From a virus: 45,162 nucleotides of DNA. The translations under genes were made by a program, and so were the position numbers. The DNA lies in IMG/VR virus record IMGVR_UViG_3300025424_000019, positions 1-45,162 of that record. One strand, 5' to 3'. Below, piece after piece: positions 28,854 to 40,747 of the stretch. How positions within the stretch are numbered: position 1 is the first letter of the stretch; the number at the start of each line of letters is the position of its first letter. The notes beneath the pieces were generated by a model that was given only the letters and a program-made list of their open reading frames with translations, searched no databases and had not been told where the DNA came from.

Positions 28854-28860
28854 AATTTTC

Positions 28861-29616: not shown

Positions 29617-29637
29617 AGAGACAACTTAGAAATATAT

Positions 29638-29712
29638 CTGGCGTTCTTCTAACGGATAAGAAAGTGGTCTTCTAAACCATCAATAGGGGTTCGATTCCCT
29701 TACGCCGGACCA
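29638..29712 (+). tRNA. tRNA-Arg(TCT)
   Basis: Acceptor CTGGCGT/ACGCCGG, loop CTTCTAA, T arm AGGGG-TTCGATT-CCCTT, A73-CCA. Confidence 0.88.
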
Positions 29713-29819
29713 AATTAAAACACACTACTCGCAGGACAGCCGAATCTGTCTGTAACTTCTAGTCGTAACTAAGCGTGAGAACTTGGGAAGTGCGATTCTC
29801 ATAGTGTGTTTTAATTTGG
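29710..29819 (+). ncRNA. long-stem hairpin RNA, H family member 4
   Basis: CCAAATTAAAACACACTA (29710-29727) is perfectly complementary to 29802-29819, 18 bp; the first three bases are the CCA of the preceding tRNA. The 74-nt interior has several small stems. Shares the AAAACACACT/AGTGTGTTTT core with the other H members. Confidence 0.7.
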
Positions 29820-29849
29820 TTCTGTTGTAAAAATACAACGAGAAAAATT

Positions 29850-29878
29850 TTGACAATAAATCGTATTGGTGATACAAT
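29850..29878 (+). promoter_or_regulatory. sigma70-like promoter TTGACA-17-TACAAT of RNA T1
   Basis: TTGACA 29850-29855, TACAAT 29873-29878, spacer almost identical to that of 22745-22773. Followed by a boxA-like motif. Confidence 0.78.
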
Positions 29879-29919
29879 ACATGTATTGAAAGTGATAAAG
29901 CAATCTTGCTTAATCACTA

Positions 29920-29934
29920 GGTTCTTTAAAAATT
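29920..29934 (+). promoter_or_regulatory. boxA-like antitermination motif
   Basis: GGTTCTTTAAAAATT resembles rRNA-leader boxA (TGCTCTTTAACAA). It precedes RNA T1, and the same motif at 30188 precedes RNA T2. Suggests recruitment of host NusB/NusE for untranslated RNA. Confidence 0.5.
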
Positions 29935-30126
29935 TGTAGTGTAGTTTAGGCTGATGAACGGCAATTTGCCAGCAGTCTGAAACTTGACCTTAACGCCATT
30001 ACTTTGCCGGGTAACCGTTGAGAGTTGTATTCGTCTAGAGGCAGGACACCGTCCGTAATAGGGACGGAAACATGGATATCGTTATTCCATATACATTTAT
30101 CAAGCGTCAGCCTAAACTACATTACA
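29935..30126 (+). ncRNA. structured RNA T1: 20-bp stem enclosing a tRNA-like cloverleaf
   Basis: 29935-29954 pairs with 30107-30126 over 20 bp with one G-U (core TTTAGGCTGA/TCAGCCTAAA). Inside lie an irregular domain closed by AACGG/CCGTT and a tRNA-like fold at 30026-30095: TGTAT/ATACA acceptor, D stem GTC/GAC, anticodon arm CGTCC-GTAATAG-GGACG, T-like arm ATGGA/TCCAT with ATCGTTA. No CCA. Long stem plus tRNA-like module again recalls Y RNAs. Confidence 0.6.
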
Positions 30127-30132
30127 AAAAGG

Positions 30133-30161
30133 TTGACAATAATTCGTTGCTGTGATACAAT
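30133..30161 (+). promoter_or_regulatory. sigma70-like promoter TTGACA-17-TACAAT of RNA T2
   Basis: TTGACA 30133-30138, TACAAT 30156-30161. The leader has GTTGA-GAAA-TCAAC and then boxA-like TGTTCTTTAAAAA at 30189. Confidence 0.78.
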
Positions 30162-30187
30162 CATAGCATGAGTTGAGAAATCAACAA

Positions 30188-30203
30188 TGTTCTTTAAAAA
30201 TTT
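30188..30203 (+). promoter_or_regulatory. boxA-like antitermination motif
   Basis: ATGTTCTTTAAAAATT, second instance of the motif described at 29920, again 25-30 nt after a TTGACA/TACAAT promoter. Confidence 0.5.
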
Positions 30204-30210
30204 TACATTT

Positions 30211-30490
30211 CATATAGACCCTGTTAAGTTCAGGGTTCTATATGTAAACATATTAACAGGGTTACCCACTCCGTTAGGCTAAACGTGACTGTCTGTTATC
30301 GGGTCACTAGTAGGCATGAAACAGGGAACTAGAGGATAGGTTGAGGCGACACCAAAGCCAATAGCACTGAAGGGCTAGGGATCTCCCGGAGTAGCGACGG
30401 ATTAAACAGTGGGGTGTAATGAGAGTAAGTCAAATGTAGCAAGTGGTGTTGCTGTTTGCTGTTCTTCCCTTTTATTGTGTTTACATATAG
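30211..30490 (+). ncRNA. structured RNA T2 with mutually exclusive stems
   Basis: CATATAGACCCTG pairs with CAGGGTTCTATATG (30231-30244, one bulged T). The same CTATATG is also part of CTATATGTAAACA (30238-30250), perfectly complementary over 13 bp to 30478-30490. The two pairings exclude each other, so the RNA could switch. The interior holds many short stems and the 12-mer AAACGTGACTGT. No ORF of note. Confidence 0.55.
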
Positions 30491-30499
30491 TGTAAAACT

Positions 30500-30644
30500 A
30501 TTATTAAGTGTTATCATGGGTATCGTGTATGGACGCATACACTATGCGGGCCTAACTAGCGAGGGACAGGTCCTGATATAACTGCTTAGTCGCTATGGGA
30601 TGGAAGCACCAGACCCCTAAATAGAGCAGATAGCACTTAATAAT
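30500..30644 (+). ncRNA. structured RNA T3, 16-bp closing stem
   Basis: ATTATTAAGTGTTATC pairs with GATAGCACTTAATAAT (30629-30644; one G-U), followed by TATTTTT. Interior hairpin GTGTATG-GACG-CATACAC. Third consecutive large RNA after the boxA leaders. Confidence 0.55.
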
Positions 30645-30652
30645 ATTTTTAT

Positions 30653-30727
30653 GGAGCCATCGTCTATCGGTTAGGACATCAGGTTTTCATCCTGAGAAGC
30701 GGGGTTCGATTCCCCGTGGCTCTTCCA
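30653..30727 (+). tRNA. tRNA-Glu(TTC)
   Basis: Acceptor GGAGCCA/TGGCTCT, loop TTTTCAT, T arm CGGGG-TTCGATT-CCCCG, T73-CCA. Confidence 0.88.
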
Positions 30728-30732
30728 AGTTT

Positions 30733-30806
30733 CGCATAGTTCAATACTAGATTAGAACGACACTGAGGTACCTTGGTGTAGATATCGGAGTACTGTTCCG
30801 ATTGCG
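30733..30806 (+). ncRNA. tRNA-like cloverleaf without anticodon, S1
   Basis: CGCA/TGCG acceptor, TA linker, D arm GTTC/GAAC with loop AATACTAGATTA, GA, anticodon-position arm CACTGAG-GTAC-CTTGGTG, TAGATA, T-position arm TCGGA-GTACTGT-TCCGA. Spacing equals a tRNA cloverleaf, but the anticodon loop is a GTAC tetraloop and there is no CCA. All four helices covary with S2 (35123-35197), while loops are conserved. D-loop TACT could pair with the AGTA at the T-arm junction. Confidence 0.7.
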
Positions 30807-30816
30807 TAAAAGTTAT

Positions 30817-30924
30817 GGAGACAGAAACTTATCACTTGCTTCCCCGTACTAAGGTAAGTTGCAAAGATAAGCGGATAACGTGGACGGTGTATGGGTCATG
30901 CCTGTACATAGGCGGTCTCCACCA
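30817..30924 (+). tRNA. degenerate tRNA-like gene with CCA
   Basis: Acceptor GGAGACA/GGTCTCC (last pair mismatched) with A73-CCA encloses 108 nt. A hairpin ACTTGC/GTAAGT and a T-arm-like GCCT-GTACAT-AGGC can be drawn, but no normal T loop or anticodon arm. It follows S1 as the split tRNA-Leu 3' half follows S2. Confidence 0.4.
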
Positions 30925-30931
30925 AGATCAA

Positions 30932-31003
30932 CAATGAAGGATGTTTAAGACGGCTTGTAAACTTCATTGGATTCAGATACAGATTGCCGTTAATTTCTGA
31001 ATC
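30932..31003 (+). ncRNA. paired hairpins with complementary loops (kissing)
   Basis: CAATGAA.../TTCATTG with inner GTTTA/TAAAC, immediately followed by GATTCAGA/TCTGAATC. Loop 1 has ACGGC (30950-30954), loop 2 GCCGT (30986-30990): a 5-nt perfect kissing complement between adjacent hairpins. Confidence 0.5.
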
Positions 31004-31014
31004 AAATTTTTTAT

Positions 31015-31153
31015 GTGGTAAGTCTGGAGACAGGTTATTTGACTGTATGCGTAGCAGGATTGCAAACCCGAGGGGCATATGGCGATGGGAAGTGATATCA
31101 CCCGTTTGTAAAAACAAATGACTGGTTGGGTTCAACTCCCAATTACTACACCA
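31015..31153 (+). tRNA. oversized tRNA-like gene (139 nt)
   Basis: Acceptor GTGGTAA/TTACTAC with A73-CCA and a normal T arm TTGGG-TTCAACT-CCCAA. D stem AGTC/GACT with a 16-nt loop; anticodon-position stem TATGC/GCATA encloses 24 nt including GGATTGCAAACC, reminiscent of a tRNA-Cys anticodon arm; then a GTGAT/ATCAC variable region. A tRNA with insertions or an unknown processed precursor. Confidence 0.5.
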
Positions 31154-31169
31154 AGATATTTAAAGTTTT

Positions 31170-31238
31170 TGAAAATTCGCAGAAACGCTATAAGGAAGTA
31201 ACAGGTAGAACCTATCCTTGGCAAGTAACGAATTTTCA
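31170..31238 (+). ncRNA. hairpin RNA with 10-bp closing stem
   Basis: TGAAAATTCG/CGAATTTTCA perfect, interior AAGGA/TCCTT over AGGT-AGA-ACCT. Directly upstream of tRNA-Tyr. Confidence 0.45.
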
Positions 31239-31241
31239 TAT

Positions 31242-31327
31242 GGAGATGTAGGAAAATTGGTAACCCCAGTGGACTGTAAATCCACCGCCTTATGGCACTA
31301 CTGGTTCGACTCCAGTCGTCTCCACCA
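31242..31327 (+). tRNA. tRNA-Tyr(GTA)
   Basis: Class II; acceptor GGAGATG/CGTCTCC, stem GTGGA/TCCAC, loop CTGTAAA, T arm ACTGG-TTCGACT-CCAGT, A73-CCA. Confidence 0.92.
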
Positions 31328-31339
31328 TAATGTAAGATA

Positions 31340-31403
31340 GTTGCTATCGCGTCCTGCAGGTAAGTTAGCAACCGTATCATCACGGACGGGCGTATATGCC
31401 GTG
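31340..31403 (+). ncRNA. double-hairpin spacer RNA
   Basis: GTTGCTA/TAGCAAC (31340-31346 with 31366-31372) with palindromic CCTGCAGG in the loop, then CACGG/CCGTG (31381-31403). No coding potential. Confidence 0.4.
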
Positions 31404-31428
31404 TAAGAAATGCGACTCAGAATTTTAT

Positions 31429-31507
31429 GCACCGTTAGCTCAGTTTGGCCTAAGGCGCCGCCCTGTCACGGCGGAGATCAGGGGTTCGAATCCCCTACGG
31501 TGCGCCA
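31429..31507 (+). tRNA. tRNA-Asp(GTC)
   Basis: Acceptor GCACCGT/ACGGTGC, stem CCGCC/GGCGG, loop CTGTCAC, T arm AGGGG-TTCGAAT-CCCCT, G73-CCA. Confidence 0.95.
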
Positions 31508-31558
31508 AGTTTATAAGAACAATAAAATCTAATAATTTTTCTAAAACTAAATATCGTT

Positions 31559-32281
31559 ATGTATAATATAACATTACCTATTAGTAACAAAAAAATCTAT
31601 TGGCAAGACTATGAAAAATTATCGTTAATAGCAAAACTGCAAACAGGTCCTCAACATTGGCGTGAGATCAATACAGTAGAGTTATCATTGAAAAAAATAG
31701 AAAATCTTGCATGGTGGAATTGGGAAAGAACATCAAAATATTTAAATGTTCAAGAATTAAAAAAAGTAATTGATGTAGGTAGTGGTATAGCTACCTTTGA
31801 TTTAACCTTGCATCATTTAAATAAAGACATTGAGTTTTTCTTAGTTGACAAAACAACAGTTGATATTCCTAAACAACCTTCTTATTATTCTCAGGAATAT
31901 TTTTCTTACAACTTATGGGAAGTATTTAATGAATCATTAAATTCTCCTGATGTAGATAAAAACAAATTTAATTTATTATCCCCCGATGATGAATGGCCAT
32001 CTGATGTGGATCTTGTAATTTCCATGTTTTCATGGTGCTGGCATTATCCTAAGGAATATTATTGGGATAAGTTGCTTAAAAGCCTTAAAGTTGGTGGTGT
32101 ATTAATACTAGATGTATTAAACATCAAAGATAGAAATATTGTAGAAGAAATTAGTGACGAATTGGGATCAAGCCCACAGTATGATTTAAAATATCCGCCC
32201 ATAGATCATCCATATATAAATCAATTTAATCTTATAGATGGAAGTCATGGCGGTTATTATTCATGGATTAGAAACAGATAA
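31559..32281 (+). CDS. SAM-dependent methyltransferase, leaderless
   Basis: 240 aa. Motif I VIDVGSGIATFDLTLHHL, post-I EFFLVDKT, motif IV DVDLVISMFSWCWHYP, then LKVGGVLILDVLN. Class I methyltransferase; the substrate is unknown (small molecule or RNA possible). ACTAAATA ends 5 nt before the ATG and no Shine-Dalgarno exists, so the transcript should start at the initiation codon. Confidence 0.78.
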   Translation: MYNITLPISNKKIYWQDYEKLSLIAKLQTGPQHWREINTVELSLKKIENLAWWNWERTSKYLNVQELKKVIDVGSGIATFDLTLHHLNKDIEFFLVDKTTVDIPKQPSYYSQEYFSYNLWEVFNESLNSPDVDKNKFNLLSPDDEWPSDVDLVISMFSWCWHYPKEYYWDKLLKSLKVGGVLILDVLNIKDRNIVEEISDELGSSPQYDLKYPPIDHPYINQFNLIDGSHGGYYSWIRNR

Positions 32282-32307
32282 TTTGTTTCTAATTACATAA
32301 AAAAGTT

Positions 32308-32502
32308 TTGTAAGTGTCAGTAAGTGGAAGTCACCGATTCGAGTAGCCGGCCAGCCAAAGAGTAGGTAAACAACGAGGGGCGCAATACCCTAGCACAAAC
32401 ATAGAAGCGTTGGATGAGTAACTGTAATGACGTACCGAGTCCCAGCCGGCTTTATATACTTGGGTGAATGGTGTCAATAACGATGGTGACACAACTTACA
32501 AA
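32308..32502 (+). ncRNA. large structured RNA W
   Basis: TTGTAAGTGTCA (32308-32319) pairs with TGACA(CAA)CTTACAA ending about 32502, 12 bp with a 3-nt bulge; inside, AGCCGGC (32345-32351) pairs with GCCGGCT (32445-32451). No ORF on either strand. Lies between the methyltransferase gene and tRNA-Gly. Confidence 0.45.
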
Positions 32503-32506
32503 TTCA

Positions 32507-32671
32507 TTATAATGACTGAATGAATTCTAACGCATCATTGACATTAGTAAAAAACTTCATAGTTAGTACATGGTTATAAATATCACGAGAAAATATATAG
32601 CATGTATTGTCGTTACTCATTGACAAATGTATATGTAGCCCAGATTGAGTGATAGCGTCATAAGTGTGCAT
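32507..32671 (-). CDS. small hypothetical protein, leaderless
   Basis: 54 aa: MHTYDAITQSGLHIHLSMSN...DALEFIQSL. AATAAATA ends 4 nt before the ATG on the minus strand, the same geometry as 24197 and 33568. No known domain; helical C-terminus. Confidence 0.5.
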   Translation of the reverse strand: MHTYDAITQSGLHIHLSMSNDNTCYIFSRDIYNHVLTMKFFTNVNDALEFIQSL

Positions 32672-32683
32672 TAAGTATTTATT

Positions 32684-32757
32684 GCGGGTTTAGTTTAATG
32701 GTAGAATTAGAGCCTTCCAAGCTCAAGACACGGGTTCGATTCCCGTAGCCCGCTCCA
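32684..32757 (+). tRNA. tRNA-Gly(TCC)
   Basis: Acceptor GCGGGTT/AGCCCGC, loop CTTCCAA, T arm ACGGG-TTCGATT-CCCGT, T73-CCA. Confidence 0.93.
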
Positions 32758-32762
32758 AACAC

Positions 32763-32770
32763 TATAAATA
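32763..32770 (+). promoter_or_regulatory. late promoter box TATAAATA
   Basis: Exact T4 late consensus immediately after tRNA-Gly, 18 nt before the ATG at 32789 with AGGAG between. Confidence 0.6.
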
Positions 32771-32788
32771 CTTGTCAGGAGATTAATT

Positions 32789-32965
32789 ATGGCAGACGAT
32801 TTAAATCAACAAATAAAAGAATATCTAAAAGAAAATATGACTTTAAATATATCACAAATATCTGATATATATGGTAACAATCCAGATGAAGTAAGAATAG
32901 ATATTTTACTAGAGGGCGACATCATTGCAACAAATAAAATAAATCCAACATACGATTGGAGTTAA
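32789..32965 (+). CDS. small acidic hypothetical protein
   Basis: 58 aa (MADDLNQQIKEYLKENMTLNISQI...). AGGAG 8 nt upstream and a TATAAATA box. No recognised domain. Confidence 0.65.
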   Translation: MADDLNQQIKEYLKENMTLNISQISDIYGNNPDEVRIDILLEGDIIATNKINPTYDWS

Positions 32966-32971
32966 AAGTTG

Positions 32972-33000
32972 TTGACAACAAACACTATGTGATATATAAT
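32972..33000 (+). promoter_or_regulatory. consensus sigma70 promoter TTGACA-17-TATAAT
   Basis: Perfect hexamers at 32972-32977 and 32995-33000; drives the Leu-Ile-Met-Ser tRNA block. Confidence 0.85.
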
Positions 33001-33015
33001 AGTGTTAAGTATATT

Positions 33016-33100
33016 GCGACTGTGGTGAAATAGGTAGACGCAAGGGACTTAAAATCCCTCGCCGCAAGGCGTCCCGGTTCGATTCCGGGCAGTCGCACCA
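33016..33100 (+). tRNA. tRNA-Leu(TAA)
   Basis: Class II; acceptor GCGACTG/CAGTCGC, stem GGGA/TCCC with loop CTTAAAA, variable arm GCCGCAAGGC, T arm CCCGG-TTCGATT-CCGGG, A73-CCA. Confidence 0.95.
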
Positions 33101-33109
33101 AACATTATA

Positions 33110-33199
33110 CCCCCAGTAGCTCAAGGAGAGCAGGTCGTTTTATACACGATTAATCTAGATAAGGTCCAGGATGGGGTTCGATTCCTCACTGGGGGACCA
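33110..33199 (+). tRNA. tRNA with TAT anticodon and long variable region
   Basis: Acceptor CCCCCAG/CTGGGGG, anticodon stem GTCGT/ACGAT with loop TTTATAC (UAU, Ile AUA codon), T arm TGGGG-TTCGATT-CCTCA, A73-CCA. About 21 nt in the variable region, too long for tRNA-Ile. Charging identity is uncertain. Confidence 0.8.
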
Positions 33200-33208
33200 A
33201 GGAATGTT

Positions 33209-33285
33209 GCGCCTATAGCTCAGTTGGTCAGAGCAGTGGACTCATAATCCATTGGTCCAAGGTTCAAGTCCTTGTGGGCGCACCA
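33209..33285 (+). tRNA. tRNA-Met(CAT), elongator
   Basis: Acceptor GCGCCTA/TGGGCGC, stem GTGGA/TCCAT-type with loop CTCATAA, T arm CAAGG-TTCAAGT-CCTTG, A73-CCA. Confidence 0.93.
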
Positions 33286-33292
33286 AAAATAA

Positions 33293-33380
33293 GGAGCATT
33301 GGCCGACCGGTTAAGGCAATGGATTGCTAATCCATCATTCAGCAATGGGTGAGTAGGTTCGATTCCTACATGCTCCGCCA
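33293..33380 (+). tRNA. tRNA-Ser(GCT)
   Basis: Class II; acceptor GGAGCAT/ATGCTCC, stem ATGGA/TCCAT, loop TTGCTAA, G73-CCA. Confidence 0.94.
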
Positions 33381-33382
33381 AA

Positions 33383-33568
33383 TTATTTCTTGTTCTTGAT
33401 TAATTCTTCAAGGTCCCTACGAAGTATAGGGTCTGTGAGCATTAGTCTTGAGATAAGACCAGTAAGATATCCACGTTCATATAACATTTGTTCGTGGCTG
33501 TCTTTAAAATTACGCTTATGCTGGCGTAATAATTTTTCAACAACATCGCTACAGTCTTTGATATTCAT
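33383..33568 (-). CDS. small hypothetical protein, leaderless
   Basis: 61 aa, charged and helical (MNIKDCSDVVEKLLRQHKRNFKDSHEQM...). TATAAATA ends 4 nt before the ATG. Its stop lies 2 bp from tRNA-Ser on the opposite strand. Confidence 0.6.
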   Translation of the reverse strand: MNIKDCSDVVEKLLRQHKRNFKDSHEQMLYERGYLTGLISRLMLTDPILRRDLEELIKNKK

Positions 33569-33586
33569 GCTGTATTTATATTTAAC

Positions 33587-33612
33587 GGTTCGGTGGCAGA
33601 GTGGCTAACAAT
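33587..33612 (+). pseudogene. 5' half of a split tRNA-Cys
   Basis: GGTTCGG acceptor strand and TGGCAGAGTGGCTAACAAT D-arm region, ending where the anticodon arm should start. The matching 3' half is at 34341-34377 (CCGAACC, T73). The intact tRNA-Cys and an endonuclease gene lie between. Could be a dead remnant or a trans-acting half. Confidence 0.7.
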
Positions 33613-33687
33613 GTGAGCGTGGCGGAATGGTTACGCACCGGATTGCAAATCCGCACCATGCAGGTTCGAGCCCTGCCGCTCACTCCA
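33613..33687 (+). tRNA. tRNA-Cys(GCA), nested inside the split tRNA-Cys
   Basis: Acceptor GTGAGCG/CGCTCAC, loop TTGCAAA, T arm GCAGG-TTCGAGC-CCTGC, T73-CCA (U73 is the Cys identity base). Begins directly at the break in the 5' half. Confidence 0.92.
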
Positions 33688-33729
33688 TTTTACGAACTAA
33701 CGCTAAATATATATAAAGCGAGGGTTCAA

Positions 33730-34365
33730 ATGTTTTGTGAAAATTGCGGTAAAGAACATACTGGTACATACGGTTCGGGCAGATTCTGTAGCCCTAAATG
33801 TGCCCGTGGGTTTTCTACAAAAAATAAAAGAGCAGAGATTAATAAAAAAGTTTCTAAAACTCTTTTTGGTAGAAGATTGACTTCTGAGCATATAAGGAAT
33901 ATAGAACAAGGAAACAATTTTAATCGAAAAGATAAAATTGAAAAAAATTGTTTAGAATGTAACGCTATTATAGTGTGTAGGCCAAGTGATTGTAGAAAAT
34001 TTTGCACAACAAAATGCTGGGCAAACTACACAGAAAAAAATAAAGAACCGTTTTTATTGTACAGACAAAGATGTAACTTTGGTTTCAAATTTGAGGACTA
34101 CCCAGATAATTTTGATTTAGGATTAGTAGAAGAATACGGTTGGTATAGTCCAAGTAATAAAGGTAACAACCTTAACGGAGTATCTAGAGATCATATGGTC
34201 AGTGTCAGGACAGGTTTCGAGTTAGGAATAGATCCTGATATTATTAAACACCCTGCTAATTGTAAATTAATGTTACATAAAGATAATCAAAGTAAGAGAG
34301 AAAAAAGTTCAATTTCTATCGAAGAACTTTTAGAAAGAATAAGGAGCTGGTCAGTTCAAATCTGA
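33730..34365 (+). CDS. Zn-finger HNH-like homing endonuclease in split tRNA-Cys
   Basis: 211 aa from the ATG at 33730. Fingers CENCGKEHTGTYGSGRFCSPKC and CLECNAIIVCRPSDCRKFCTTKC; C-terminal NGVSRDHMVSVRTGFELG ... ANCKLMLHKDNQSKR resembles a divergent HNH core (DH...H..N..K). The stop codon lies inside the T stem of the tRNA-Cys 3' half, so the gene is fused to the tRNA remnant. Confidence 0.75.
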   Translation: MFCENCGKEHTGTYGSGRFCSPKCARGFSTKNKRAEINKKVSKTLFGRRLTSEHIRNIEQGNNFNRKDKIEKNCLECNAIIVCRPSDCRKFCTTKCWANYTEKNKEPFLLYRQRCNFGFKFEDYPDNFDLGLVEEYGWYSPSNKGNNLNGVSRDHMVSVRTGFELGIDPDIIKHPANCKLMLHKDNQSKREKSSISIEELLERIRSWSVQI

Positions 34366-34377
34366 CCCGAACCTCCA
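34341..34377 (+). pseudogene. 3' half of the split tRNA-Cys
   Basis: T arm GTCAG-TTCAAAT-CTGAC, acceptor strand CCGAACC perfectly complementary to GGTTCGG at 33587, T73-CCA. Overlaps the endonuclease 3' end. Confidence 0.7.
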
Positions 34378-34378
34378 A

Positions 34379-34450
34379 TGTAGCTCTTATTGTGTAATAG
34401 AATTACACGGCTTTGGTAAAGCCATATAAGTTTAATTCTTAGTAACAGCA
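34379..34450 (+). tRNA. possible degenerate tRNA-Thr(GGT)
   Basis: Anticodon arm CGGCT-TTGGTAA-AGCCA, T arm AAG-TTTAATT-CTT, acceptor TGTAGCT/AGTAACA with a mismatch and a G-U. The end reads CAC instead of CCA and the D arm is poor. Probably decayed. Confidence 0.3.
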
Positions 34451-34471
34451 CTAAAGAGTTACCCAAATTAG

Positions 34472-34500
34472 TTTACAGATAAATAGCTGTCTGATATAAT
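34472..34500 (+). promoter_or_regulatory. sigma70-like promoter TTTACA-17-TATAAT
   Basis: TTTACA 34472-34477, TATAAT 34495-34500. Its start point coincides with the 5' end of the split tRNA-Leu. Confidence 0.75.
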
Positions 34501-34509
34501 TATTGTATA

Positions 34510-34545
34510 GCCCTGGTGGTGAAATTGGTAGACACGCTATATTAG
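34510..34545 (+). pseudogene. 5' half of a split tRNA-Leu
   Basis: GCCCTGG acceptor strand, Leu-type D arm (TGGTGAAATTGGTAGAC), anticodon 5' stem GCTAT, breaking inside the anticodon loop (ATTAG). The 3' half at 35199-35242 begins with the complementary ATAGT. An active promoter sits directly upstream. Confidence 0.65.
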
Positions 34546-34563
34546 TGTTTTCTTTATGTTTAG

Positions 34564-34571
34564 TATAAATA
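34564..34571 (+). promoter_or_regulatory. late promoter box TATAAATA
   Basis: Exact T4 late consensus 17 nt upstream of the ATG at 34589, with GAGGAGAG between. Confidence 0.6.
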
Positions 34572-34588
34572 AACATGAGGAGAGTAAA

Positions 34589-35047
34589 ATGCTATTAATA
34601 GAAGAATACATTACACAATCAAAGGTAGAGAGACAAACGCACATAGATTTAACTGATCCGTGTGTAGAACGAGGTGGTCCGCAGAAAGGCGGACTATCAA
34701 GTTATTGTAAAGGGCTAATGGCACATTTATTGGATACTACTATACCAAGTGGTCATAAGATACATGTATGTCATGCCTGTAACAATGAAAAGTGTAGTAA
34801 TCCAAAACACCTATATTGGGGAACAGCACAAGAGAATAGATTAGATCAAGGGCATAATACTTCTCCTTGGGACAGAATGGTTGAGAAATATGGTTACGAA
34901 GAAGCCTGTAGAATGAACGCTAAAGGCAAGAAAGGTAACACACACGGTTCTGGAAACAAAGATAAGCCAAAGTCAGCGGATCAAAAGAAAAAAATCTCCG
35001 AGAGTATTAAGTTACACTGGGAGAAGAGAAAAGGGCAAGTGGCGTAA
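34589..35047 (+). CDS. HNH homing endonuclease in split tRNA-Leu
   Basis: 152 aa from the ATG with GAGGAGAG upstream. HNH variant: HKIHVCHACNNEKCSNPKHLYWGTAQENRLDQ (typical phage CHxCxNxxCxNPxHL pattern), then a basic tail GKKGNTHGSGNKDKPKSADQKKKISES like NUMOD modules. Its last 15 nt overlap the intact tRNA-Leu(TAG). Confidence 0.85.
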   Translation: MLLIEEYITQSKVERQTHIDLTDPCVERGGPQKGGLSSYCKGLMAHLLDTTIPSGHKIHVCHACNNEKCSNPKHLYWGTAQENRLDQGHNTSPWDRMVEKYGYEEACRMNAKGKKGNTHGSGNKDKPKSADQKKKISESIKLHWEKRKGQVA

Positions 35048-35117
35048 TTGGTAGCCGCACTGGATTTAGGTTCCAGCGAGTAAAATCGTGAGAGTTCGAG
35101 TCTCTCCTTGCCCACCA
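35033..35117 (+). tRNA. tRNA-Leu(TAG), inside the split tRNA-Leu
   Basis: Class II; acceptor GGGCAAG/CTTGCCC, loop ATTTAGG, T arm GAGAG-TTCGAGT-CTCTC, A73-CCA. Overlaps the endonuclease stop. Confidence 0.92.
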
Positions 35118-35122
35118 AAGTT

Positions 35123-35197
35123 TTGTATAGTGTAATACTAGATAACACGACATAGAGGTACCTTTATGTAGATACTGGAGTACTGTTCCAGTTACAA
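35123..35197 (+). ncRNA. tRNA-like cloverleaf without anticodon, S2
   Basis: TTGTA/TACAA, D arm GTGT/ACAC with loop AATACTAGATA, arm CATAGAG-GTAC-CTTTATG, TAGATA, arm CTGGA-GTACTGT-TCCAG. Each stem differs from S1 by compensatory changes while loop sequences are kept. Lies between tRNA-Leu(TAG) and the tRNA-Leu 3' half. Confidence 0.7.
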
Positions 35198-35198
35198 T

Positions 35199-35242
35199 AT
35201 AGTTTATGCCCTGATAGAGTTCGAGTCCGTCCTAGGGCACCA
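35199..35242 (+). pseudogene. 3' half of the split tRNA-Leu
   Basis: ATAGT completes the anticodon stem of 34510-34545; CTAGGGC completes its acceptor (one G-U); A73-CCA present. The T stem next to TTCGAGT is poorly paired, suggesting decay or a need for another partner. Confidence 0.55.
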
Positions 35243-35279
35243 AATAATTTGATGTGGAAACGCATGGGACAGAAAATAT

Positions 35280-35353
35280 GGGGGATTAGGCTAGCGGGAA
35301 ACCGTCGCCCTTGCACGGCGAATTCATCAGTTCGATTCTGATATCCTCCACCA
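35280..35353 (+). tRNA. tRNA-Ala(TGC)
   Basis: Acceptor GGGGGAT/ATCCTCC, stem TCGCC/GGCGA, loop CTTGCAC, T arm ATCAG-TTCGATT-CTGAT, A73-CCA. Confidence 0.9.
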
Positions 35354-35359
35354 AGAAAC

Positions 35360-35490
35360 CCGGGCACCTCTGCCCGTTAGTGAAGGGGGTGTGCTGATCA
35401 CCATAGACTCAGCAGGTACATACGGACTTGACCATACGACCCGCTTTACATGGGTACGGAAACAACCGTAGGTGAGGACTAACAACCTTC
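35360..35490 (+). ncRNA. structured RNA X
   Basis: GTTAGT (35376-35381) pairs with ACTAAC (35478-35483), with GCTGA/TCAGC and TACGG/CCGTA inside; a GGGC-ACCTCT-GCCC hairpin precedes. No ORF. Confidence 0.4.
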
Positions 35491-35498
35491 CCATAAGA

Positions 35499-35629
35499 AT
35501 AAATGTTATGGACAGTGTAACTACTCAGAGATTGGGCTTATGTGGTGTAAGTGGCAGTCTCACTTTATAAGTGTGTTTCGCACCCTGCTGATAAGACAGG
35601 CTCTGTAAGTGAAAAAGAAATACATTTAT
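35499..35629 (+). ncRNA. structured RNA X2
   Basis: ATAAATGT (35499-35506) pairs with ACATTTAT (35622-35629). Inside are a D-arm-like CTTA-TGTGGTG-TAAG and CCTG/CAGG; a possible further tRNA-like fold. Ends 7 nt before the initiator-like tRNA. Confidence 0.4.
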
Positions 35630-35635
35630 AAATTA

Positions 35636-35704
35636 CGCGGGGAATCAGGTGATAGGTCAGTCTCATAAGCTCGGCCCAGAGGTTCGAATCCTTACCCGCA
35701 ACCA
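35636..35704 (+). tRNA. initiator-like tRNA-fMet(CAT)
   Basis: 5' CGCGGGG and 3' ACCCGCA-A-CCA reproduce the bacterial initiator ends, including the C1xA72 mismatch. Loop CTCATAA, T arm GAGG-TTCGAAT-CCTT. Short (69 nt) with reduced D arm and weak anticodon stem; may be divergent. Confidence 0.6.
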
Positions 35705-35709
35705 ATTAT

Positions 35710-35783
35710 CTCGGTATAGTGAAATGGTATCACCCGACGTTTGGGACGTTGAAGCGCAAGTTCGATTCCTGCTACCGAGACCA
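35710..35783 (+). tRNA. tRNA-Pro(TGG)
   Basis: Acceptor CTCGGTA/TACCGAG, loop TTTGGGA, A73-CCA. Confidence 0.9.
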
Positions 35784-35807
35784 ACAGTTTTTAACAAAGG
35801 AAATAAC

Positions 35808-35972
35808 ATGACATGTAGAGGATATGATCCAAAAGCCGTTAAAATCGGAAGCTTAGTTAAGATGGCAGCATCAACGATTTTAGATCCACATAAGCGTGGT
35901 GCATTTATGCGTAGCTATGTTAAAATCGCTGAAAGCGAATTACGCACACCAAATCGTAAGGATTCTAAATAA
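35808..35972 (+). CDS. small basic hypothetical protein
   Basis: 54 aa (MTCRGYDPKAVKIGSLVKMA...), AAAGG 7 nt upstream. Its stop overlaps the next ATG (TAATG), so the two small proteins are co-translated. Confidence 0.65.
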   Translation: MTCRGYDPKAVKIGSLVKMAASTILDPHKRGAFMRSYVKIAESELRTPNRKDSK

Positions 35973-36148
35973 TGAGTAAAGGTTCACGACCTCGTCCATT
36001 TAGTATTCCTATAGAAGAATACAACAATAGGCTAGATTTAATATTCGGGAAAAAAGAACCGAAAGCAAGATATGTTCCCCCTCCGTTACCTGAAAAAGAA
36101 GTAGAAACACATATCTGGGAAATTAAAGACTCCGATCAAGGGGACTAA
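35972..36148 (+). CDS. small hypothetical protein
   Basis: 58 aa, Pro-rich (MSKGSRPRPFSIPIEEYNNRLDLIFGKKEP...). Coupled to the preceding small gene. No known domain. Confidence 0.6.
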   Translation: MSKGSRPRPFSIPIEEYNNRLDLIFGKKEPKARYVPPPLPEKEVETHIWEIKDSDQGD

Positions 36149-36178
36149 ATAAAAAGTAGGTATCTAAAAGAGTATAAA

Positions 36179-36254
36179 GCCTGAGTGCGTAGAGAGGTGA
36201 TACGTCTCCTTTACACGGAGAGCGATACTGGTTCGAGTCCAGTCTCAGGTACCA
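36179..36254 (+). tRNA. tRNA-Val(TAC)
   Basis: Stem TCTCC/GGAGA, loop TTTACAC, T arm ACTGG-TTCGAGT-CCAGT, acceptor GCCTGAG/CTCAGGT, A73-CCA. Confidence 0.92.
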
Positions 36255-36259
36255 AATAT

Positions 36260-36335
36260 GCGGGAATAGCTCAGTTGGTAGAGCGTCACCTTGCCAAGGT
36301 GAATGTCGGGAGTTCGAGTCTCCTTTCCCGCTCCA
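36260..36335 (+). tRNA. tRNA-Gly(GCC)
   Basis: Acceptor GCGGGAA/TTCCCGC, stem TCACC/GGTGA, loop TTGCCAA, T73-CCA. Canonical second copy. Confidence 0.95.
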
Positions 36336-36366
36336 AGTTTATTAACAAACGAAAGAAAATAAATAA

Positions 36367-36585
36367 ATGTCTGAATCAAGAGCAAGATACACAAGCGAGG
36401 AAGCCGCACTAGCAGTGGGTAACCGTTTTGATTTAGTTCTTATTGCATCACAGCGTGTAAGAGAATTAAAGCGAGGACATCAACCTAAACTTGTTACAAA
36501 AGCAGGCGCAACAGTTACAGCATTAGAAGAAATTGAAAAGGGACTTGTAGGTAGAGATTACCTCAAGCGTATTAGAAAATCATAA
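36367..36585 (+). CDS. rpoZ: RNA polymerase omega-subunit-like protein
   Basis: 72 aa. RYTSEEAALAVGNRFDLVLIASQRVRELKRGHQP and ATVTALEEIEKGL follow the omega/RPB6 core closely (GNRFDLVLxAxxRxR, then TVxALxEIxxG in E. coli RpoZ). Omega stabilises beta' in host polymerase. A phage copy could replace the host subunit or shift polymerase toward phage sigma factors. It sits between tRNA-Gly and tRNA-Trp. Confidence 0.85.
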   Translation: MSESRARYTSEEAALAVGNRFDLVLIASQRVRELKRGHQPKLVTKAGATVTALEEIEKGLVGRDYLKRIRKS

Positions 36586-36590
36586 AATAT

Positions 36591-36665
36591 ATCTCTCAGG
36601 TGTAATGGGCTGCACATCAGTCTCCAAAACTGAAGGACAGGGATCGTAGCCCTGGGGGGATGCCA
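36591..36665 (+). tRNA. tRNA-Trp(CCA)
   Basis: Stem TCAGT/ACTGA, loop CTCCAAA, acceptor ATCTCTC/GGGGGAT, G73-CCA, T arm CAGGG-ATCGTAG-CCCTG with A54/T58. Confidence 0.85.
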
Positions 36666-36673
36666 AAAAAGAA

Positions 36674-36715
36674 AAATTGCGTAAATTTTGATAAATAAAT
36701 CAAGACAAGCGCAAT
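36674..36715 (+). promoter_or_regulatory. late-type box within a hairpin upstream of a homing gene
   Basis: AATTGCG (36674-36680) pairs with CGCAATT (36709-36715) and encloses GATAAATA. The stem could sequester the promoter or the mRNA start of the endonuclease at 36723. Confidence 0.4.
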
Positions 36716-36722
36716 TATCCAT

Positions 36723-37340
36723 ATGAACTGTATTCACTGTAACCGAGAAATTAATAATCGAGGATCTCTATATGCACATCAAATGTCGTGCAGTTTAAAT
36801 CCTGAAAAGATTACCCATGCTAGATCACCACTAGCAGGTAGAAAAAAAGGTTCCGTGGCTTGGAACAAGGGTATTCAGACTGGGCATAAGCCTTGGAACA
36901 AGGGCTTGACAGGCCTGACAGGTACCCCGCATACTGAAGAAACGAAAAAGCACCTTTCCAAAAGGGCTAAAGAATTGAATTACGGTGGGTATATCCCCGG
37001 ATCAGGTCGAGGCAAAAAAGGATGGTACAATGGTTTTTTCTGTGATAGCAGTTGGGAACTAGCATACGTTATATATTGCCTAGAACACAACATAAATATC
37101 AAACGAAATACCGATAAGCGAAAATATATATGGGAGGGTGTTGAAAAATCATACACTCCTGATTTTATTGTTGATGGAAAAGTCACGGAGATTAAAGGTT
37201 ATAAAACTGACCAATGGTTAGCAAAACACAAAGCTAATCCGGACATTGAAGTTTTGTATGAAAAAGAAATGCAGCCAATACTTAATTATGTGATAAGTAA
37301 GTATGGTAAGAATTATATTGAATTATACCAGGGAAGATAG
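36723..37340 (+). CDS. Vsr/EDxHD-like homing endonuclease
   Basis: 205 aa. N-terminal finger CIHCNREINNRGSLYAHQMSC, duplicated NUMOD3 motifs (VAWNKGIQTG, KPWNKGLTG), then FCDSSWELAYVIYCLEHNI ... YTPDFIVDGKVTEIKGYK, the catalytic E/PDF/ExK pattern. Ends 9 nt inside tRNA-Ser(TGA), mirroring the endonuclease-tRNA overlaps at 25811 and 35033. Confidence 0.82.
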   Translation: MNCIHCNREINNRGSLYAHQMSCSLNPEKITHARSPLAGRKKGSVAWNKGIQTGHKPWNKGLTGLTGTPHTEETKKHLSKRAKELNYGGYIPGSGRGKKGWYNGFFCDSSWELAYVIYCLEHNINIKRNTDKRKYIWEGVEKSYTPDFIVDGKVTEIKGYKTDQWLAKHKANPDIEVLYEKEMQPILNYVISKYGKNYIELYQGR

Positions 37341-37421
37341 GCTGCATGGCGCGGACACGGTCTTGAAAACCGTCCCACTTATGATGAATAGGTGACAGTT
37401 CGATTCTGTTATCTTCCTCCA
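37332..37421 (+). tRNA. tRNA-Ser(TGA)
   Basis: Class II; acceptor GGAAGAT/ATCTTCC, stem ACGGT/ACCGT, loop CTTGAAA, T arm GACAG-TTCGATT-CTGTT, T73-CCA. Confidence 0.9.
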
Positions 37422-37424
37422 ACA

Positions 37425-37460
37425 CACGAAGCGTGAGTTCGAATCTCACCGTTTCCGCCA
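37425..37460 (+). pseudogene. orphan tRNA 3' half (Ser-like)
   Basis: T arm GTGAG-TTCGAAT-CTCAC, acceptor strand CGTTTCC, G73-CCA, with no 5' half adjacent. Directly follows the endonuclease plus tRNA-Ser unit, as expected if the unit displaced a resident tRNA-Ser. Confidence 0.6.
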
Positions 37461-37474: not shown

Positions 37475-37849
37475 ATGAAAATTACTGAAGATCAATTTCG
37501 ATATGAGTGGTTTTCTGGTACTGGCAAAGGTGGACAGCATCGCAACAAGCATCAAAATTGTTGCCGTTGTATACATGAACCTACTGGAATCACTGCAAAC
37601 GGTACGAATAGTCGTAGCCGAGAAGATAATAAAAGAGCCTCATATGTCACATGTTTAAGTAGAGTATTAGCACACTTTCATGAAGACACTGAAAGATATC
37701 AAGCTGGTTCTGAAAGAATTAGAACATATCATGAACCTGACAACCGTGTCACGGATCATGCTAGTGGACACACTGACACATACACCAATGTAGTATTAAA
37801 AAACTATATTGATGAAATGGTAGAAGCAAGAGCAAAGTCAGTAAGATAA
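37475..37849 (+). CDS. release-factor-like GGQ protein (catalytic domain only)
   Basis: 124 aa. SGTGKGGQHRNKHQNCCRC carries the GGQ loop (residues 19-21) that hydrolyses peptidyl-tRNA; ERIRTYHEPDNRVTDHASG is the RF1/RF2/PrfH segment following it. The codon-recognition and N-terminal domains are absent, so it should act codon-independently, for example on stalled or damaged ribosomes. AAAGG upstream. Lies just ahead of the tandem RNAs and the Ro60-like gene. Confidence 0.85.
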   Translation: MKITEDQFRYEWFSGTGKGGQHRNKHQNCCRCIHEPTGITANGTNSRSREDNKRASYVTCLSRVLAHFHEDTERYQAGSERIRTYHEPDNRVTDHASGHTDTYTNVVLKNYIDEMVEARAKSVR

Positions 37850-37863: not shown

Positions 37864-37892
37864 TTGTCAAGTATTCGATACTGTGATACGAT
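37864..37892 (+). promoter_or_regulatory. sigma70-like promoter TTGTCA-17-TACGAT
   Basis: TTGTCA 37864-37869, TACGAT 37887-37892 with TGTGA extension. The first structured RNA (E0) starts 24 nt downstream; the DUF2828-like gene is probably in the same transcript. Confidence 0.7.
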
Positions 37893-37915: not shown

Positions 37916-38079
37916 AGGTTAGGTACAGCAATCATATATTATATGAACTGTTAGACACCGTGGTAGAATATTGGAGCAAAACAGGTAAAACTGTGTAGCG
38001 TTGAAGGTATCTATTGAAGCAGGACTAACAAGCACAGAGTGATGGCCTGTGTTGAATAAAAGCAGTCAACAACTAACCT
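37916..38079 (+). ncRNA. AGGAT/CAGCAA RNA, tandem member E0
   Basis: Closing stem AGGTTAG/CTAACCT, bulge GTACAGCAA, then TCATAT/ATATGA hairpin, TGTTAG/CTAACA and CACAG/CTGTG. Tail CTGTTTGTATTCT runs straight into E1. Confidence 0.65.
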
Positions 38080-38090
38080 GTTTGTATTCT

Positions 38091-38340
38091 AGGATGATTA
38101 CAGCACTTAAAAACAATAACGAAACCATTAATGCAGTAGACAGCGGCCCGTGGAAAGGCTTTATCTAGGAAACTAGACGCTAATGGAACTGACGACTTAT
38201 GGAAAGACATATATGATGTTTGTACAGACACAACACAAACTAGCCAACATGATATGTTGGTATGGATCTAGGAAACTGAACCGACATGCAGGGGATTTGG
38301 CTAGACCTGACAGAAAAACTTAACCAGTTTCGCTCATCCT
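38091..38340 (+). ncRNA. AGGAT/CAGCAA RNA, tandem member E1 (250 nt)
   Basis: Closing stem AGGATGA/TCATCCT, bulge TTACAGCA, then CGAAAC/GTTTCG near the stem, CCATTA/TAATGG, a TCTAG-GAAA-CTAGA GNRA hairpin, and CCAACAT-GAT-ATGTTGG competing with CTAGCCAA/TTGGCTAG. The largest family member. Tail CTGTTAAATTT leads into E2. Confidence 0.65.
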
Positions 38341-38349
38341 GTTAAATTT

Positions 38350-38402
38350 AGAATGTTAACAGCAACTAAAAAACTTTTATTGACAAAAAGAAAATACATT
38401 CT
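38350..38402 (+). ncRNA. AGGAT/CAGCAA RNA, tandem member E2 (minimal)
   Basis: Closing stem AGAATGT/ACATTCT, bulge TAACAGCAA, one inner hairpin CTTTT-ATTGACA-AAAAG. Only 53 nt: it defines the minimal unit. Ends 16 nt before the DUF2828 ATG, so it may act on that gene's translation. Confidence 0.65.
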
Positions 38403-38418: not shown

Positions 38419-38910
38419 ATGAACGCATTTGTAAACGCAATACAAAACCAAGAAGCCCGTACTACTAACGGTATGAAGGCCCGTAAGTCAACTGCTAACT
38501 CAATAGTTGATTTGTTCTACAACATCGGTGCAAGCCGTGGTAAGAACATTATCCCAGCATTCACTGCTGCCTATGTGCAAGACAAGGAACTTGCTTTGCG
38601 TGTGGCTTTGTGGGCACGAGATGCCCGTGGTGGTGCAGGTGAACGACAATTGTTCCGTGATATATTGTCATACTTGGAAAAGCATGACCCAGAAGCGGCA
38701 GCACGATTGTTAGTTAAGATTCCTGAAGTAGGTCGTTTCGATGACTTGTTTGTCTTTAAGGATAAGGATCTTAAGGCTAAGGCATATACTTTGCTAGGTG
38801 ATGTTATTAGAAATGCTCAAAATGCTGAAAATATTCTAAAACAATTGGATAACCTGTCAGAAAAAGAATGCGAAGATTTACTTAAGCAATTTTCCGACCA
38901 AACTGATTAA
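38419..38910 (+). CDS. DUF2828/TROVE-like (Ro60-like) protein, N-terminal piece
   Basis: 163 aa: NSIVDLFYNIGASRGK, then ALWARDARGGAGERQLFRDIL and IPEVGRFDDLF, the conserved helical-repeat motif of DUF2828/TROVE-like proteins related to the RNA-ring protein Ro60. It ends abruptly where a GIY-YIG gene is inserted antisense (29-bp overlap). The rest of the protein is encoded at 39677-40747; together 519 aa, close to full length. A ribosome binding site (AAAGG) precedes the start. Confidence 0.82.
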   Translation: MNAFVNAIQNQEARTTNGMKARKSTANSIVDLFYNIGASRGKNIIPAFTAAYVQDKELALRVALWARDARGGAGERQLFRDILSYLEKHDPEAAARLLVKIPEVGRFDDLFVFKDKDLKAKAYTLLGDVIRNAQNAENILKQLDNLSEKECEDLLKQFSDQTD

Positions 38911-39607
38911 ACTTACCAGAGTCGATCTGTTTCTTCATTCCTTCTTTACACGAGTTAGAAACTTGTTTCCAGTAATCCAAATTAACATTTGGATTCTTTT
39001 TACAATTTTCTCCGTGAAATCGTTTGTAGTTAGCGGGATCGACTTCTTTAGAACAGTGTTCGCAAATGACCTTCTTTGTTTTTAACCTTCCTTTAGAAAT
39101 ATTAGATTTCCTCGTTTGTGAACACGGACCAGTTGATCCAGTGGACTTTCCTTTATTCCAGGGAATTTGTGTATTTTTCTTACCCTTATTCCAGACTTCG
39201 TTAAGTCTACCTTGCTCCCAACCACTTGGAATTGGCAATAATGGATCATGCCAGGTTTGAAGATTACATTCGGGGTGGCAGATAAGGATTAACCCTTCTG
39301 CTGAAAAGTCAGGCATATTATTTCTTTTGTTGATAAAACAACCGTTAGTAGATGCTTTAACTTTATACAAAAATCTTTTTTCGTGGTGTATTGCTTGTTC
39401 TTTACTTGAAAAAATTTTAGAGACTCTGACTTCGAATGAATCTTTACCGTATTGTTTTATTAAGTTTTTAACATGTGTAGATGAACTAAAATAAGTATTC
39501 CATAAGTCATTAGGCGAACATCCTTTTGCCCATCTGACTCCGTAATACCACTGGTTGGTAGGTTTGAATTTTAAAATGTATGTAAATGGGATAGTAAGTG
39601 TTGACAT
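38882..39607 (-). CDS. GIY-YIG-like homing endonuclease inserted in the Ro60-like gene
   Basis: 241 aa. TYILKFKPTNQWYYGVRWAKG is a GIY-YIG variant; KEQAIHHEKRFL supplies the Glu helix. NUMOD3 motifs EVWNKGKKNTQ and IPWNKGKSTGS, C-terminal Zn-finger CEHCSKEVDPANYKRFHGENC. Antisense within the split gene, like MobE in phage Aeh1 nrdA. AGATAAATAAG lies upstream of its start. Confidence 0.82.
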   Translation of the reverse strand: MSTLTIPFTYILKFKPTNQWYYGVRWAKGCSPNDLWNTYFSSSTHVKNLIKQYGKDSFEVRVSKIFSSKEQAIHHEKRFLYKVKASTNGCFINKRNNMPDFSAEGLILICHPECNLQTWHDPLLPIPSGWEQGRLNEVWNKGKKNTQIPWNKGKSTGSTGPCSQTRKSNISKGRLKTKKVICEHCSKEVDPANYKRFHGENCKKNPNVNLDYWKQVSNSCKEGMKKQIDSGKFNQFGRKIA

Positions 39608-39629
39608 ATAAAAAGTTTTCTGTTATACT
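39601..39629 (+). promoter_or_regulatory. sigma70-like promoter TTGACA-17-TATACT
   Basis: TTGACA 39601-39606 and TATACT 39624-39629, overlapping the start of the antisense endonuclease. Gives the C-terminal piece of the split gene its own transcription. Confidence 0.75.
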
Positions 39630-39676: not shown

Positions 39677-40747
39677 ATGACTACAGCAAAAAATGAATTG
39701 AAGAAAAAACTAAACCTCATTCTGATGAATGGACAATTGGCAAGCAAATGGACTCCTCGTAAGGGCGAAGTGGCCCGTGAAATCCGTGAGTTCTTCGGTA
39801 TGAGTCCCAAGCAATATCGTAAGAGTCTTGTGGCTCTTACTAAGGTTGTTGAAACACAAATGTGTTCCAACGATTGGGACAACATCAACTATAGTCATGT
39901 GCCTTCACAGGCAGCACGAATCTACAAGAAGGCGTTCAACCGTCATTCTACTACATTCAGTGAATATGTGGCTAAGTTGGTAAGTGGTGACAAGACTGTG
40001 AAGGTCAATGCTTCGGCAGTGTTCCCTCATGAAGTACTGAAGGGTTTAATCTCTAGCTATAGCCGTACTAACTTGGGTAAGACTGAGTTGGATCATGTGA
40101 CAGCGCAATGGGATGCATTGCCTAACTACATGAATGATGCAAACATTCTACCAATGGTAGATGTATCTGGTTCTATGACTTGCCCAGCAGGTGGAACTGG
40201 TAGTGTAACATGTTTGGATGTTAGTGTATCGCTTGGTCTATACCTAGCTGACAAGAACAAGGGCGTGTTCAAGGACACATTCTTGACTTTCAGTGGATCT
40301 CCTGAACTACTTACCCTAAAGGGTGATATTGTTCAAAAGATTAACCAAATGGTTCAATCTAAGTGGGCAATGGACACAAACTTGCACAAGGCTATGGACA
40401 AGATCCTAAGTGTTGCGGTCAAGAACAATGTTCCTGAAAGTGACATGCCTAAGATGTTGTTGATCCTTTCTGACATGCAATTCAATGCGTGTGTTACACA
40501 CGATGACTCTGCAATGGAAATGATTCAACGCAAGTATGAACAAGCTGGTTACACTATGCCTAGCGTAGTATTCTGGAACTTGAACAGTAGCGGTAACGCC
40601 CCTGTCAAGGCAGACAAGAGTGGTGCGGCTTTAGTCTCTGGCTTTAGCCCAAGCATCATGGCAAGTTTGTTAGGTGCAGATCCTTCTGAGTTCACTCCAG
40701 AAGGAGTTTGTCTAAAGACTATTATGCAACCAAAATACGATTTATAA
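39677..40747 (+). CDS. DUF2828/TROVE-like (Ro60-like) protein, C-terminal piece with vWA domain
   Basis: 356 aa. [40 protein letters not shown] is the second conserved DUF2828 segment; [10 protein letters not shown] follows. The vWA domain has an intact [15 protein letters not shown] (DxSxS), later Thr and ILSDMQF. AAGGAAACAAAG precedes the ATG. The split pieces keep all domain motifs, so a two-chain protein is plausible. In the Ro60 model the helical ring binds RNA ends and Y RNAs on its outside. Confidence 0.85.

Follow-up and report, generated by a model that had tools for sequence, protein, structure and literature searches.

The question raised by this locus is what a huge phage might do with a release-factor catalytic domain that stands alone, encoded within the phage's own tRNA gene array and followed by non-coding RNA and a Ro60-like gene. 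The window, i.e. the whole stretch of DNA analyzed, is a complete IMG/VR record of 45,162 bp; the remaining phage genome lies beyond the search. The features discussed are collected in Table 1.

Table 1. Features around the GGQ gene (positions in the window)
Feature	Position	Strand	Remarks
tRNA array, 38 genes	20630..37421	+	GGQ gene at distal end
tRNA-Ser (UGA)	37332..37421	+	Final intact tRNA gene in the array; 54 nt before GGQ start codon
3' tRNA half	37432..37460	+	T-arm, acceptor strand and CCA; no 5' half
GGQ-only release-factor-like protein, 124 aa	37475..37849	+	RF-1 catalytic domain and RTY..RVTDH segment; no domains 1/2
Sigma-70-like promoter just 5' of RNA A	37864..37892	+	TTGTCA-17-TACGAT, extended -10; consensus match only
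RNA A, Y-RNA-like non-coding RNA	37917..38078	+	GGTTAG/CTAACC closure; covarying helices
RNA B, second Ro60-associated non-coding RNA	38086..38354	+	Closes with UCAUCC
Split Ro60 homologue, N-terminal half	38419..38910	+	DUF2828; phrog_850 positions 1-144
GIY-YIG homing endonuclease gene inside Ro60 gene	38882..39607	-	
Promoter-like sequence before second Ro60 half	39601..39629	+	TTGACA-17-TATACT, extended -10
Split Ro60 homologue, C-terminal half	39677..40747	+	Rest of DUF2828 and vWA-like DUF7788; phrog_850 positions 144-476

The GGQ ORF begins with an ATG behind an AAAGG Shine-Dalgarno sequence; a longer version starting at GTG 37433 was dropped because it would read through the tRNA remnant. 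The translated protein matched the Pfam RF-1 family (PF00472) over positions 6-115 of the 116 in the profile, with 52.9 bits (cut-off 35) and an E value of 4e-14. Both the GGQ motif (SGTGKGGQHRNK) and the RTY..RVTDH segment (RTYHEPDNRVTDH) are intact, bearing out the original prediction, made from the sequence of this DNA, that these two elements are kept. Release factor domain 3 is followed in the protein by the RTY..RVTDH segment and then by a short C-terminal helix. The prediction that codon recognition is lacking also held, as the ORF begins at domain 3. Given that the reading frame 5' of the ORF consists of tRNA sequence only, and that the ORFs of relatives start directly at domain 3 with no N-terminal domain (the sole exception, L080, belongs to the sister family described below), codon-recognition domain 2 is absent. 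The protein has the GGQ motif and RF-1 fold that define the catalytic domain of a class-I release factor and lacks what defines RF1 and RF2, namely domain 1, a domain 2 with a PxT or SPF motif, and a place in the RF1/RF2 clade.

An initial scan of IMG/VR with the GGQ protein yielded 242 relatives, and 80 loci were kept. Alignment of 32 family sequences revealed 24 invariant columns, including W12, GGQHRNKHQNC and R83, with G19, G20 and Q21 present in all 32. Comparison of the gene with its relatives gave dN values of 0.09-0.18, and dS was 1.4 or more, or saturated. The number of relatives, the invariant columns and a dN far below dS show that the ORF did not arise by chance; it is a real gene under strong purifying selection. 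All of the relatives are on metagenomic contigs, many of them incomplete, such that a gene missing from a contig is not necessarily missing from the phage. No relative in a cultured phage exceeded 60% identity. Most of the records hit there are unannotated; the annotated hits are ordinary prfA/prfB genes, apart from two short matches to Tunturiibacter phage. A search of 85,000 species genomes returned 11 loci only: two GGQ-only copies, both on MAG contigs (L086 and L087), some fragments, and otherwise the domain-2-bearing factors taken up below with the sister family.

In a maximum-likelihood tree built on 135 columns, the GGQ-only phage proteins, which share the signature GGQHRNKHQNCCR, formed one clade (support 98/94). 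This clade joined a second phage-rich family, the sister factors with an in-frame UGA, with 100/100 support, and RF1, RF2, PrfH and ArfB lay outside the two; the branches of ArfB and PrfH are long, and the placement of those two is unsure. The GGQ-only proteins are a phage-specific clade distinct from RF1, RF2, PrfH and ArfB.

By sequence, the closest solved structure was RF1 (E = 5e-13), followed by PrfH (about 1e-5) and mtRF-R (phmmer E = 2.5e-4). An AlphaFold model of the GGQ protein, computed with 32 aligned relatives, had a mean pLDDT of 84, with lower values near the GGQ loop. Foldseek ranked ribosome-bound RF1 first among matches to this model. VIA-align superposed it on PrfH bound to the damaged 70S ribosome (9mor_A) with Z 9.5 and rmsd 2.1 over 76 aligned residues, a score tied with those of RF1 structures, and on mtRF-R (7a5h_C) with Z 7.8 and rmsd 2.7 over 72.

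Each of the known factors resembles the window protein in part. RF1 and RF2 share domain 3 with it, and RF1 provided its best PDB sequence matches, but domains 1 and 2 are missing, the clade is separate, and the ncbifam prfA score was 64 bits against a cut-off of 423. PrfH (RFH) is likewise an RF-domain protein without domain 1, and its core fold matches; however, PrfH combines a codon-recognition-type domain with an RtcB partner and has no RTY..RVTDH segment, the GGQ protein being the reverse on all three counts. Identity with PrfH was rejected on the basis of the ncbifam release_prfH score (47.3 bits against a cut-off of 166.65) and the separate clade in the tree. ArfB/YaeJ and ICT1 are also GGQ proteins without codon recognition. 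In contrast to them, the window protein keeps the RTY..RVTDH segment and an RF1-type C terminus and has no basic C-terminal tail; the missing tail, seen in an alignment with E. coli ArfB, led to rejection of ArfB identity. The mitochondrial mtRF-R (C12orf65), a small GGQ protein that acts on split large subunits, has a similar fold, but its sequence is only distantly similar and no MTRES1-like partner is known here. The sister factors, which are phrog_19918-like, have in common with the window protein the GGQHRNKHQN signature, the 100/100 branch and a phage distribution; they differ in keeping domain 2 with a PPT motif and in a single UGA interruption, neither of which the window protein has.

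A tRNA gene was located within 50 nt of the GGQ gene in 27 of 63 distinct members, compared with 93 of 770 other ORFs from the same loci (P = 8e-9), and tRNA genes were present on both sides in 20 of 63 members as against 20 of 770 other ORFs (P = 8e-14); these P values overstate the certainty because related contigs are not independent. One order that recurs is tRNA-Met, GGQ gene, tRNA-Arg, the genes being closely spaced, mostly 8-33 nt apart. The association is weaker in the distant members (L058-L081), which are mostly without nearby tRNAs. At one related locus, L004, an intact tRNA-Ser whose 3' end is similar to that of the remnant in the window directly precedes the GGQ gene. The remnant itself adjoins an endonuclease ORF (36723-37340) and is probably the scar of a mobile-element insertion. 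Also within the array of the window, positions 36367-36585 encode a small protein that matches RNA polymerase subunit Rpb6/omega (PF01192, 43 bits).

The two ORFs downstream of the RNAs are halves of one phrog_850 protein. A Ro60-like protein had been predicted here; its Ro60 fold was supported, but the gene proved to be interrupted by an endonuclease gene on the opposite strand. Sequence searches matched this protein to DUF2828 and DUF7788 only, with vWA_Ro60 marginal and no match to the Pfam TROVE model, and a sequence profile run against the PDB returned nothing convincing, whereas a fold search succeeded. The fold was tested on the intact relative L030 rather than the split window gene, and the model had a modest pLDDT of 67. 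Its top four VIA matches were all TROVE/Ro60 chains, each aligned over about 340-350 residues: 9kop (Z 11.5, rmsd 5.8, 350 aligned), 2nvo (Z 10.5), human Ro60 9nen (Z 10.4) and that of phage phiLo, 9l5y_A (Z 10.3). Foldseek placed the phiLo protein first (E = 6e-7). As judged from this modeled fold, the neighbor of the GGQ gene is a Ro60, with a TROVE ring and a vWA-like domain. It has in common with bacterial and phage Ro60 proteins (Rsr and that of Thermus phage phiLo) the fold, a MIDAS-type DVSGSM motif and structured RNA directly upstream; it differs from known Ro60/Rsr in belonging to the DUF2828/DUF7788 sequence family with no Pfam TROVE match, in being split in the window, and in having RNAs that lie outside Rfam. 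The second half has its own start and is preceded by a strong promoter-like sequence, so that each half may be expressed on its own; the working protein may be made in two pieces.

The non-coding stretch between the GGQ and Ro60 genes (37850-38418) recurs directly 5' of nearly all related phage Ro60 genes, irrespective of where the GGQ gene sits, and the sigma-70-like promoter falls within this conserved upstream profile. RNA A and RNA B share the 5' start AGGAUNNNUACAGCA and each closes back on itself, the self-closing ends being as expected for a putative Ro60-binding stem. In RNA A, 89.1% of cells in the alignment were paired, and compensatory change was present in 25 of 29 pairs. The covariation score was 0.67, compared with 0.24 for shuffled and 0.06-0.13 for slid controls; the score is favored by a structure derived in part from the consensus fold of that very alignment, although the margin is large. 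The closing helix was 99.3% paired with four of five pairs compensated, and helix 6 was only 74.7% paired; roughly one RNA A sequence in two has a T-arm-like hairpin with a UUUCGAU loop. Covariation therefore confirms as structured the RNAs that had been put forward as candidate Y RNAs. No Rfam family, Y RNA included, matched either RNA.

Full-length copies lay no more than 700 nt upstream of a Ro60 start in 48 of 50 cases for RNA A and 40 of 40 for RNA B (88 of 90 in total), and none was found in 78 loci (1.0 Mb) without Ro60. Since the RNAs track Ro60, the GGQ gene was rejected as their partner. RNA A and RNA B are best described as a candidate family of phage Y RNAs. At some loci the RNA modules are duplicated or reordered. 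The segment before the Ro60 start (38355-38400) resembles profile positions 478-537, which recur elsewhere in related tRNA arrays, and is perhaps a repeated promoter or leader.

In the window the GGQ protein, the Y-like RNAs and the Ro60 homologue are contiguous, as had been noted, and the original prediction drew from this that the three could form one ribosome-rescue and RNA-repair system. All three components exist, but Ro60 was present in only 9 of the 26 larger GGQ contigs, and the gene order varies there; unconserved order had been named in advance as evidence against the idea, and the outcome goes part of the way to that. The search for RtcB or RNA ligases that had been proposed for the rest of the genome was run on the contigs of relatives. 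RtcB was found in 2 of 26, close to the GGQ gene in one of them (L051/G014, 2.6 kb), and in none of the window proteins scanned around the gene; T4-type RNA ligases were found in 5 and 3 of 26 by two ligase searches. Where present, Ro60 and RNA ligases were nearer the GGQ gene than expected from random placement (combined P of about 5e-4 and 7e-4, with kinship among the contigs uncorrected and contig ends treated as real). The GGQ and Ro60 genes were near each other in L004, L015, L021, L030 and L049, and in L021/G007 RNA ligase 1, GGQ and Ro60 genes lie on one strand within about 4.4 kb. Viewed from Ro60, 76 of 80 loci had no RF-domain gene within about 6 kb; among the other four, the gene was GGQ-only in one (the contig of L030) and a sister factor in three. 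The varying order and the 76 Ro60 loci without an RF-domain gene indicate that GGQ, Ro60 and ligase genes share a region and not a fixed operon, and Ro60 and its Y-like RNAs appear to be largely a separate unit from the GGQ gene.

Joint action of the GGQ protein, Y RNAs and Ro60, on the pattern of PrfH-RtcB2 and Rsr-Y RNA-RtcB, is accordingly given a low probability: contiguity in the window, the five loci with GGQ and Ro60 close together and the two clusters with RNA ligase 1 or RtcB speak for it, but the order varies, 17 of 26 GGQ contigs are without Ro60 and 24 without RtcB, most Ro60 loci have no GGQ gene nearby, and the RNAs follow Ro60 only. The likeness to PrfH-RtcB2 in particular was not upheld, the protein having missed the PrfH cut-off and fallen in a separate clade, and a PrfH-RtcB module was rejected because RtcB is mostly absent. 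Still less probable is interference with the host: the protein would stop or divert termination or rescue there, for instance as a competitor of RF1/RF2 or ArfB for the peptidyl-transferase center, instead of rescuing ribosomes. Unusual invariant residues around the GGQ (W12, R23 and HQNC), absent from RF1/RF2, could be read in this way, but pure competition would not require the GGQ signature that is invariant in all 32 sequences.

A somewhat better case, though an unlikely one, can be made for a two-piece release factor in which the RTY..RVTDH segment docks in trans on a codon-recognition or adaptor protein of the phage or the host, much as ArfA recruits RF2. The segment is strongly kept though domain 2 is missing, and other genes of the window (Ro60 and NrdA) are split by mobile elements. 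However, no PCRF/domain-2 gene (PF03462) occurs elsewhere in 25 of 26 GGQ contigs, and thus no split partner is recognizable by sequence; no domain-2 piece was found close to GGQ-only loci, and the ORFs invariably open at domain 3, with no remnant ahead of it. Each of the 26 contigs has exactly one RF-1-domain gene, the second copy in G010 being a terminal repeat.

The reading we favor, at slightly better than even confidence, is that the GGQ protein is a codon-independent peptidyl-tRNA hydrolase that has lost stop-codon recognition and is made with replacement tRNAs, this last element being proposed from its frequent place inside a tRNA array. Ribosomes would become stuck when host defenses cleave tRNAs, lower their supply or damage the ribosome itself. 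The GGQ loop would then enter the peptidyl-transferase center of these ribosomes, or that of a split 50S subunit on which peptidyl-tRNA remains, and release of the peptide would free the ribosome for reuse, with Ro60 and the Y-like RNAs, encoded in that region as well, forming a particle of their own for RNA quality or repair. We infer the hydrolase activity, its substrate and the link to RNA damage. Several features count against this reading. The basic C-terminal tail of ArfB finds empty mRNA channels, and the GGQ protein has neither such a tail nor a domain 2 for positioning on the ribosome; in RF1 the RTY..RVTDH segment packs on domain 2, yet the segment is retained here; the linkage to Ro60 and RtcB is loose; and the tie to tRNA genes fades in the more distant members, on loci that are metagenomic throughout.

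In passages of earlier work, the tRNAs, RNA ligases, TROVE proteins and peptidyl-tRNA hydrolases of jumbo phages are interpreted as a means of countering host tRNA cleavage (PMC7824862), RF-domain proteins are read as rescue factors in conflict systems, and prfH is placed in RNA-repair conflicts (PMC6514570); the passages of these two papers retrieved by term search contain no description of a GGQ-only phage family. RF1 and RF2 of huge phages are mentioned in PMC7162821. Should the GGQ protein prove to hydrolyze peptidyl-tRNA with no stop codon present, phages would have a rescue factor other than ArfA, ArfB, tmRNA and PrfH, and this would suggest that phage tRNA arrays are in part a response to attacks on translation, beyond aids to codon usage. 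How a bare GGQ domain is targeted to the right ribosomes is then a sharp, testable question. For Ro60, the covarying RNAs provide a concrete candidate for a phage Y RNA family.

The sister clade consists of short RF1-like factors that have domain 2 and no domain 1. In all 80 phage loci compared (L180-L259, of which 67 differ in their downstream sequence; one of the 80 is the contig of L080), the reading frame is broken by exactly one internal stop, without exception a TGA at one fixed position preceded by a Gly codon, and the same single in-frame TGA was present in L133, L143 and L151. Of the bacterial homologues, the six that cover this site in frame (L088-L091, L093 and L094) carry it too, with Arg in place of Gly before the TGA in L091. 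A seventh, L092, has TGG at the site and a frame disruption just after it, and E. coli RF1 has Trp at this position. The ordinary RF1/RF2 genes of the same bacterial genomes, that of L088 aside, contain no internal stops. Among 385 alphaproteobacterial genomes, the UGA-bearing factor occurred in one, the genome used as center.

In the sister-family phages UGA is a normal stop, ending 159 of 496 long ORFs, and no tRNA with a UCA anticodon was found in the flanks of the loci, although tRNAs of some kind flank 58 of 80. On these two grounds selenocysteine and a reassigned code are disfavored. Taken with the Trp in RF1 and L092, they make readthrough as Trp the preferred, not proven, explanation, and the UGA looks like a site of programmed readthrough or recoding. 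A literature search found no published description of UGA readthrough in short RF1-like phage factors; the family is an example of apparent UGA recoding within a release-factor gene. The codons just 3' of the UGA are strongly biased in L180-L259 (CGC for 39 of 53 Arg, CTG for 21 of 32 Leu and ATA for 27 of 31 Ile), a choice that in many members would put TGA TAA into the +1 frame; the biased codons are a possible recoding signal.

More tentatively, and with rather less than even confidence, we suggest that phages own a branch of class-I release factors in two forms, a UGA-interrupted short RF1-like factor and a codon-blind GGQ-only protein in tRNA arrays. The first would be made only when termination at UGA fails, and both would rescue ribosomes under defenses that target translation. 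The two forms never occurred together in the contigs examined.

Elsewhere in the window, at positions 2656-6362, the large subunit of ribonucleotide reductase (NrdA) is encoded as two ORFs with intein-like ends and an endonuclease ORF between them, an arrangement that looks like a split intein.
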